Below are positions 22,214 through 32,236 of a stretch of 38,074 nucleotides of DNA, one piece after another. Both the position numbers and the translations under genes were made by a program. The notes beneath the pieces are model-generated. The model was not told the origin of the DNA. It searched no databases and saw only the letters and a program-made list of their open reading frames with translations. Each line of letters opens with the position of its first letter. The stretch's first letter is position 1. Source of the stretch: Armatimonadota bacterium (GTDB lineage: Bacteria; Armatimonadota; Hebobacteria; GCA-020354555; CP070648). The stretch is from assembly GCA_035527535.1 (NCBI GenBank), contig DATLAK010000034.1, positions 1-38,074 on the forward strand, given 5' to 3'.

Positions 22214-22320
22214 GTCATTCTGAGCCGCAGGCGAAGAATCCCCTACCTCCTGCGCAACTCCGATAGGGGATTCCGCCACGGGCGGACAAGTCTTCGGTCG
22301 CCAGGCTCCCTCAGAATGAC
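22214..22320. repeat. GTCATTC/GAATGAC inverted-repeat element, intergenic copy
   Basis: A 107-bp element bounded by perfect 11-bp inverted repeats, GTCATTCTGAG (22214-22224) and CTCAGAATGAC (22310-22320). Inside is a 10-bp inverted pair, GAATCCCCTA/TAGGGGATTC. Its reverse complement aligns along its length with the 87-bp element inside the DUF2156 gene (26623-26709). It is non-coding and MITE-like in shape. It separates sodA from the E2 gene. Confidence 0.85.
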
Positions 22321-26281: not shown

Positions 26282-26375
26282 ATGAACCACAAAGACACGA
26301 AGTCACCAAGGGAACGGGGATCCCAATTCTGACATCTCAAATCCGATCTTTGTGTCTTTGTGCCTTGGTGGTTCA
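26282..26375. repeat. CACAAAGACAC-type repeat pair before the DUF2156 gene
   Basis: Left arm GAACCACAAAGACACGAAG and right arm CTTTGTGTCTTTGTGCC...GGTGGTTC are inverted, related copies around a central CGGGGATCCC palindrome. The right arm ends six bases before the ATG at 26381. The base composition is far more AT-rich than the surroundings. It occupies the usual promoter and ribosome-site region of the next gene. Confidence 0.65.
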
Positions 26376-26380
26376 ACACC

Positions 26381-27394
26381 ATGGATTGCCTCCTCGAACT
26401 GCCCCACATGCGCGAGCTGACGCTGGATGATCGTGAGGTCGTGGAGGCGGCCTTGGCGCGCGAGCCGCCCGACACCTCGGAGCTGACCTTCACCAACCTC
26501 TTCATCTGGCGTCACGCATACGGCCTGCGGTTGAGCCGGGTGGAGGGCGCGCTGTGCATCTTCGCCTGGCGCGCCGATCCGGAGGAATCGTTCCTGCTGC
26601 CGCCGCTAATGGTTGAAAGGATGTCATTCCGAGGGAGTGCAGCGACCGAGGAATCTCCAGTCGGGGTTGCGCGGGAGGTAGGGGATTCCTCGCCGGAGCT
26701 CGGAATGACACCATCCGGGGCCCCGACGATCGTAGAACGCGCCCTGGCGCACCTGCGCGACCACGGCCACGACCCCAAGCTGGCGCGCGTCTCGACCGCA
26801 CAACTCGAACGCCTGGGCGTCACCGGCGAGCGCTTCTCGGTCGAGCCGGATCGCGACAACTGGGACTACGTCTATTCCGTGCGCGACCTGGTCGAGCTGG
26901 CCGGCGACAAGTACCACCGCAAGCGCAACCACATCGCCCAGTTCCAGGCCGAGCACACGCAGTGGGAGTATCGCCCCCTCACGCCCGACCTCGCGCCCGC
27001 GTGCGAGGAGCTGCAGGACCTGTGGTGTGATGAGAAGCACTGCGATCTCTCAGCCACGCTGCATGCCGAATCGCGCGCGGTCAAGGAAGCCCTGCACAAC
27101 CTCGACCGCCTGTCCGCGCTCGGGGGCTGCATTCTCGTCGGCGGAAAGGTCGAAGCCTTCACCCTCGGCGAGCCGCTCAACGCCGACACCGTGACCATCC
27201 ACATCGAGAAGGCGAACGCCGCCTTCCACGGCCTCTACCAGGTCATCAATCAGCAGTTCCTCGAGCACCAGGGGCATGATTTCGCCTACGTCAACCGTCA
27301 GCAGGACCTCGGCGTCCAGGGCCTGCGCAAGGCCAAGGAGTCCTACCACCCGCACCACATGATCGAGAAGTACGTCGTGCGGTTGCGGGCATAG
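26381..27394 (+). CDS. DUF2156 (LPG-synthase C-terminal-like, GNAT-fold) protein with an inserted repeat
   Basis: The 337-residue protein is of the DUF2156 family, whose fold is that of a double GNAT acyltransferase related to the C-terminal part of lysyl-phosphatidylglycerol synthase. Family segments visible are TFTNLFIWRHAYGL, YVYSVRDLVELAGDKYHRKRNHI (two adjoining pieces) and the C-terminal FAYVNRQQDLGVQGLRKAKESYHPHHM. Residues about 82-110 come from an 87-bp inverted-repeat element that keeps the frame. The ATG at 26381 has no strong ribosome site because a repeat lies directly upstream; ATG 26408 is an alternative. The substrate is unknown. A CGCGGCG/CGCCGCG hairpin (27402-27420) follows the stop. 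Confidence 0.85.
   Translation: MDCLLELPHMRELTLDDREVVEAALAREPPDTSELTFTNLFIWRHAYGLRLSRVEGALCIFAWRADPEESFLLPPLMVERMSFRGSAATEESPVGVAREVGDSSPELGMTPSGAPTIVERALAHLRDHGHDPKLARVSTAQLERLGVTGERFSVEPDRDNWDYVYSVRDLVELAGDKYHRKRNHIAQFQAEHTQWEYRPLTPDLAPACEELQDLWCDEKHCDLSATLHAESRAVKEALHNLDRLSALGGCILVGGKVEAFTLGEPLNADTVTIHIEKANAAFHGLYQVINQQFLEHQGHDFAYVNRQQDLGVQGLRKAKESYHPHHMIEKYVVRLRA
26623..26709. repeat. GTCATTC/GAATGAC inverted-repeat element, in-frame copy
   Basis: An 87-bp (29-codon) element bounded by perfect 11-bp inverted repeats, GTCATTCCGAG and CTCGGAATGAC. Read on the plus strand it aligns with the reverse complement of the intergenic element at 22214-22320, sharing GCGACCGA, GTTGCGC, GGAGGTAGGGGATTC and TCGCC in the same order. 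The DUF2156 family sequence resumes on both sides. Confidence 0.9.
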
Positions 27395-32194: not shown

Positions 32195-32212
32195 GGCGTG
32201 CCCCCGTTGCTT

Positions 32213-32236
32213 GGGCGCGATGAATCGCGCCCCTAC
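32213..32236. repeat. Hairpin repeat overlapping the end of argG
   Basis: The stem GGGCGCGAT/ATCGCGCCC (32213-32232) is followed by CTAC. Read on the minus strand, GTAGGGGCGCGAT carries the argG stop codon TAG (32233-32235). The GTAGG border is like that of other repeats in the window. It could act as a terminator for argG. Confidence 0.65.

Follow-up and report, generated by a model that had tools for sequence, protein, structure and literature searches.

The locus and its host gene

The window, a stretch of 38,074 nucleotides, is contig C34 of an Armatimonadota draft genome of 3.24 Mb in 192 contigs. It encodes a tandem-GNAT-like protein of the DUF2156 family (LPG_synthase_C), and within this gene lies a palindromic element (Table 1). 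The terminal inverted repeats are perfect over 11 bp and bound exactly 87 bases, as the original prediction described. The reading frame is likewise kept, ORF 26360-27394 being open across the element, and 29 residues are added to the protein. The host gene has two frame-consistent starts, ATG 26381 and ATG 26408, so that the element-coded residues are approximately 81/82-110 when counted from the former and 72-101 when counted from the latter. A second copy in the window, intergenic and in the opposite orientation, is indeed a relative, since its reverse complement aligns with the 87-bp element over the full length, with identical inner blocks and a single inserted block. None of the Rfam families matched the window, and a literature search on the terminal sequence returned nothing relevant. 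Just upstream of the DUF2156 start, at 26288-26362, the window also holds an inverted repeat (CACAAAGACACGAAG / CTTTGTGTCTTTGTG, 45 nt apart), possibly a second repeat family.

Table 1. Features of the palindromic element, its host gene and its partner copy in the window.
Feature	Position	Strand	Details
Host gene, DUF2156 / LPG_synthase_C, tandem-GNAT-like protein	26381..27394	+	PF09924 at E 4e-54; single copy in genome
Palindromic element in DUF2156 gene	26623..26709	+	87 bp; host-frame translation SFRGSAATEESPVGVAREVGDSSPELGMT
Left terminal inverted repeat, GTCATTCCGAG	26623..26633	+	T immediately before, shared by 31 of 34 full-length copies
Right terminal inverted repeat, CTCGGAATGAC on +	26699..26709	-	A immediately after, shared by 28 of 34 copies
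Left half-unit hairpin	26626..26654	+	Fold; ATTCC, tandem GA, GG ... CC, tandem GA, GGAAT
Right half-unit hairpin	26685..26706	-	Fold; geometry of the left hairpin, inverted
Related 107-bp copy, intergenic, opposite orientation	22214..22320	-	One additional 19-base block

The empty site and the predicted protein

Comparison with homologues shows the host gene without its insert. All 89 DUF2156 homologues lack an insertion at the element's position, and none carries the same 29 residues. They align to residues 1-68 and 102-327 of the host protein and not to the stretch between, and the family sequence therefore resumes on both sides of the element, as had been proposed. In a genome of the same family, FLLPPLPLSSGSPQGV stands in place of the window's FLLPPLMVER, the element and PSGAPTIV. 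Compared with its nearest homologue, which is from that family and approximately 78% identical, the window protein has 32 extra residues, made up of the element's 29 and three at its edges, which leaves an uncertainty of a few codons in the location of the empty site. Candidatus Hebobacteria, a class of Armatimonadota, is among the named lineages with the closest relatives of the host protein, and the genome was assigned to this phylum accordingly. Every invariant column of a 31-sequence alignment is retained in the window protein, and peptides such as EVGDSSPELGMTPSGAPTIVER span the insert junction in the predicted product.

An AlphaFold2 model built on the same 31-sequence alignment has a mean pLDDT of 90.8, with values of about 95 in most blocks and below 50 at residues 76-101, which fall within the element-coded residues 72-101 (numbered from ATG 26408). 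In the predicted fold, the insert sits between a strand near residue 62 and a helix at 102-118. The fold resembles that of PDB 2hqy, a protein of unknown function, with a TM-score of 0.81-0.89. The model predicts that the insert-coded loop is disordered and that the host protein tolerates it, and we infer that this protein is made and active.

The repeat family and its hairpins

The element belongs to a family with further copies in its own genome, as a search for the ends demonstrates. The pattern GTCATTCYGAG-N10-30-GAATC, which captures half-elements, matches 28 times, compared with 0 matches for the reversed pattern. With the element as query, blastn locates 38 places (E up to 1), and a covariance model trained on eight copies gives at least 78 matches on both strands, corresponding to at least about 50 distinct places. 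This copy number is a lower bound, as covariance-model scoring covered 150 of approximately 900 first-look candidates. Together, the contrast between 28 pattern matches and none in the control and the roughly 50 covariance-model places indicate that the family is more than a product of chance. Full-length copies start with GTCATTC after a T and end with GAATGAC before an A, and lengths range from 51 to 166 nt among the matches listed (about 50 places). On contigs C19, C33 and C139 of this genome (L002, L004, L048), several 113-bp copies are flanked by a longer repeat, GGATTATGCGTAAGGCTTCGGGGAT ... ATGCATAATC, with some copies at contig ends.

Beyond this genome, the repeat superfamily is patchy and abundant across Armatimonadota. 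Of 291 genomes, 81 matched a loose pattern, the richest of them at 113 sites, while a control pattern matched almost none. Within the same class, copies passing a strict cut-off were found in only one relative (n = 2).

The element is a head-to-head pair of hairpin units with the tags on the outside. In each half-unit, ATTCY pairs with RGAAT, and a GA facing GA comes next in each of the 23 distinct units; the search pattern fixed the left GA and let the right one vary. The stem comprises 5 bp (ATTCC/GGAAT), GA/GA and approximately 2 bp more, the loop is usually longer than 4-5 nt, and a C-rich tail (CTCCA or CCCCTA) follows GGAAT. The changes at stem bases covary between C-G and T-A (P = 0.0003 over all units, 0.0013 over distinct units), which supports the hairpin structure. 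Folding of both strands of both window copies also surpasses that of shuffled sequences, with z-scores from -3.1 to -3.7.

The copies occupy unrelated sites, and the element is therefore probably mobile. The genome encodes three Y1_Tnp genes, the flanks of which carry no element ends (TGTCATTCYGAG), and a Y1/RAYT transposase was rejected as the driver on these grounds. No target-site duplication is visible where empty sites are compared at 60-78% identity.

Other copies within genes

Two further copies lie in genes and in frame. One (C126:2336-2422) is found in an MtaB-like methylthiotransferase, between the UPF0004 and Radical_SAM domains, and the other, 88 bp long (C113:53259-53346), in a SAM methyltransferase. 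Homologues of both proteins have empty sites. The methyltransferase insertion spans 207 nt (69 codons), and in three homologues the sequences that flank it adjoin directly or almost directly; it comprises the 88-bp element, 97 nt and some edge codons. The three genic copies share one core frame, ATEESP-x-G ... VGDSS-x-x-LGMT, and the C126 and C113 copies rank among the closest relatives of the window copy. Only at these three genic places is the coding-bias score clearly positive to the left and right alike. Three of the five copies closest to the window copy are genic, compared with none of the other 45 listed being internal to a gene (Fisher P = 0.0005), although this grouping was made after the fact and the statistics are small, with three genic copies.

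Other spanning frames in the genome, judged from their translations only, were set aside, as they resemble C-terminal tails (DnaE-like and recombinase-like) or to sequence upstream of a likely start (Pol I-like and phosphoribosyltransferase-like). In three repeat-rich relatives (G031, G017 and G250), inspection of the spanning frames led to none of 69 full-length copies being accepted as gene-internal. The best in-frame candidate among them (L297) was discarded because its frame is antisense and the element lies between genes. The difference between 3 gene-internal copies among the 50 places listed in the element's own genome and 0 of 69 in these relatives gives P = 0.07.

Likeness to known elements

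By analogy, the element would work like the Rickettsia palindromic elements (RPEs), and in form it resembles head-to-head dimers of CGTC/TGTC-tagged REPs. According to the summary of Ogata et al. in PMC10969869, almost half of the RPEs originally described from R. conorii had inserted into ORFs of the genome, and RPE-4, RPE-6 and RPE-7 are described as having a frequent ATGAC motif (PMC3767692), which is also the end of the Armatimonadota element. Like this element, RPEs are multi-copy palindromes of roughly 85-150 bp found in frame within unrelated genes; the comparison is one of descriptions, with likeness in sequence known only for the GTCAT/ATGAC ends. They differ in that the present element belongs to another phylum and that just 3 of about 50 copies listed are gene-internal, compared with a large fraction of RPEs.

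In CGTC-tagged REPs, the stem is 8-9 bp long and begins with AT, the loop measures 4-5 nt and the unpaired 3-nt tail is mostly CCA; the tag is CGTC or the variants TGTC and CCTC, and the units occur predominantly as head-to-head dimers, with RPE-4 and RPE-6 included in the group (PMC3733652). They are gene-internal in some species, and no dedicated transposase was reported for them (PMC3733652). The Armatimonadota element shares the TGTC tag (T precedes GTC in 31 of 34 copies), the AT at the start of the stem and the head-to-head arrangement. However, its 5-bp stem, followed by a conserved tandem G.A mismatch and roughly 2 more pairs, and its longer loops depart from the stem and loop definition of that group. 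Its tail is C-rich and reads CTCCA or CCCCTA, not exactly CCA. Paired hairpins and in-frame intragenic copies are also features of GTAG-REPs or REPINs with a RAYT, from which the element differs in its TGTC tag and in the absence of its ends at the three Y1_Tnp loci. The intragenic GTAG REPs of O. terrae are in frame and encode 20-30 residues, and intragenic REPs occur in other species too (PMC3733652), which means that Rickettsia is not the only setting for the phenomenon.

Small mobile sequences of enterobacteria, RU-1, RU-2 and RU-3, also occur intragenically (PMC2759123). These and bacterial MITEs are, like the present element, small non-autonomous inverted-repeat elements that are occasionally fused with ORFs, but their ends and length are different. 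An IS-derived MITE would share terminal inverted repeats, here perfect over 11 bp. At this element no target duplication is visible at 60-78% identity to empty sites, and no parent IS was found among the partners searched, namely the Y1_Tnp genes.

Tolerated insertion or selected peptide

Discussion of palindromic insertions that keep the frame has mostly treated them as an oddity of Rickettsia and has considered whether they could supply proteins with new segments. Three cases in another phylum with matching empty sites make it testable whether such insertions are selected peptides or tolerated selfish DNA, and the data at hand favor the latter. The original prediction had suggested an element selected to stay translatable, which is borne out only weakly: the frame is kept and there are three genic copies, but selection on the element itself does not emerge. 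Among the roughly 50 places listed, 25 lengths leave a remainder of 2 on division by three, 14 a remainder of 0 and 11 a remainder of 1, with no bias to multiples of three, and in most intergenic copies the frame that is read in the genic ones contains stops. Among the three genic copies, dN/dS is approximately 1.9, 0.5 and 1.2 (few sites), and the peptide itself thus appears to be under no detectable selection.

The account that best fits these observations, with a probability of roughly 0.85, is that a non-autonomous palindromic repeat inserted into the DUF2156 gene and was tolerated there, with selection on the host gene retaining only insertions that preserve the frame. The repeat family, the empty sites and the open frame are observed, and we infer that the copies arose by insertion rather than in another way. 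The 87-bp segment would be one of about 50 copies of a non-autonomous interspersed repeat with TGTC...GACA ends, mobilized in trans by an enzyme that presumably acts on hairpins, and its insertion would postdate the split of this lineage from its sequenced relatives. Tolerance would follow from a length that is a multiple of three, a host frame without a stop and a loop site between a strand and a helix. Sibling copies would have taken the same course in the MtaB-like methylthiotransferase and the SAM methyltransferase, while frame-breaking insertions would have been purged by selection on the host genes. The simplest explanation of the genic pattern is such survivor selection on host genes, acting on a subfamily that is open in one frame by chance, though something specific beyond survivor bias could contribute to the genic enrichment in this subfamily. 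With three of the five closest copies genic, on the same strand and in the same core frame, a rather speculative reading is that the 85-88 bp subfamily is specialized for residence in coding frames. It would then be an independent protein-coding palindrome outside Rickettsia, built of tandem-G.A hairpins and spread by a hairpin-acting enzyme.

Domestication of the insert, in which the loop serves binding, regulation or localization and the ATEESP...GDSS...LGMT peptide is kept by selection, is improbable. A recognizable peptide and the same core frame are common to the three genic copies, and the peptide is found in no other of the 291 genomes of the phylum; however, common DNA suffices to give a common peptide, and replacement differences are no rarer than silent ones. 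In addition, the loop is predicted to be disordered, and the three host proteins are functionally unrelated. An action at the level of nucleic acid is about equally doubtful, whether through an mRNA hairpin (attenuation or processing), with which the better-than-shuffled folding agrees, or through an internal start that splits the protein in two. For the latter, a Shine-Dalgarno-like motif lies 6 nt before an in-frame ATG at 26705 (GGAG-CTCGGA-ATG, 26695-26707), but the GGAG motif is missing from the MtaB and methyltransferase copies. The reading frame also runs uninterrupted from upstream, the full-length protein is modelled as a single confident fold, and homologues conserve its N-terminal part.

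Misassembly or misbinning, by which a repeat was placed into the gene erroneously, is very improbable. Some near-identical copies of a longer subfamily do lie at contig ends (C59, C80, C81, C139 and C140), where the assembler broke at the family. The window copy, in contrast, is unique, with the next-best genomic match in blastn 88% identical, and the nearest contig end is 11 kb away. Moreover, the frame is preserved exactly, and the sequence of the host gene continues on either side.

Further insertions in the genic hosts

The SAM methyltransferase on C113 (L079) carries two more in-frame inserts, one of about 97 nt directly before the element, which contains the palindrome GGCGGGATTCATCCCGCC, and another, farther along, of about 22 residues. 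Both give only short matches elsewhere in the loci compared. In the window, a 25-nt piece at 32212-32236 is 92% similar to the palindrome of the methyltransferase insert. A homologue of the MtaB-like protein in another genome (G005, L175) has a different in-frame insertion, RQSIERQSHNTGE..., in the same linker, which suggests that this linker is an insertion-tolerant site.
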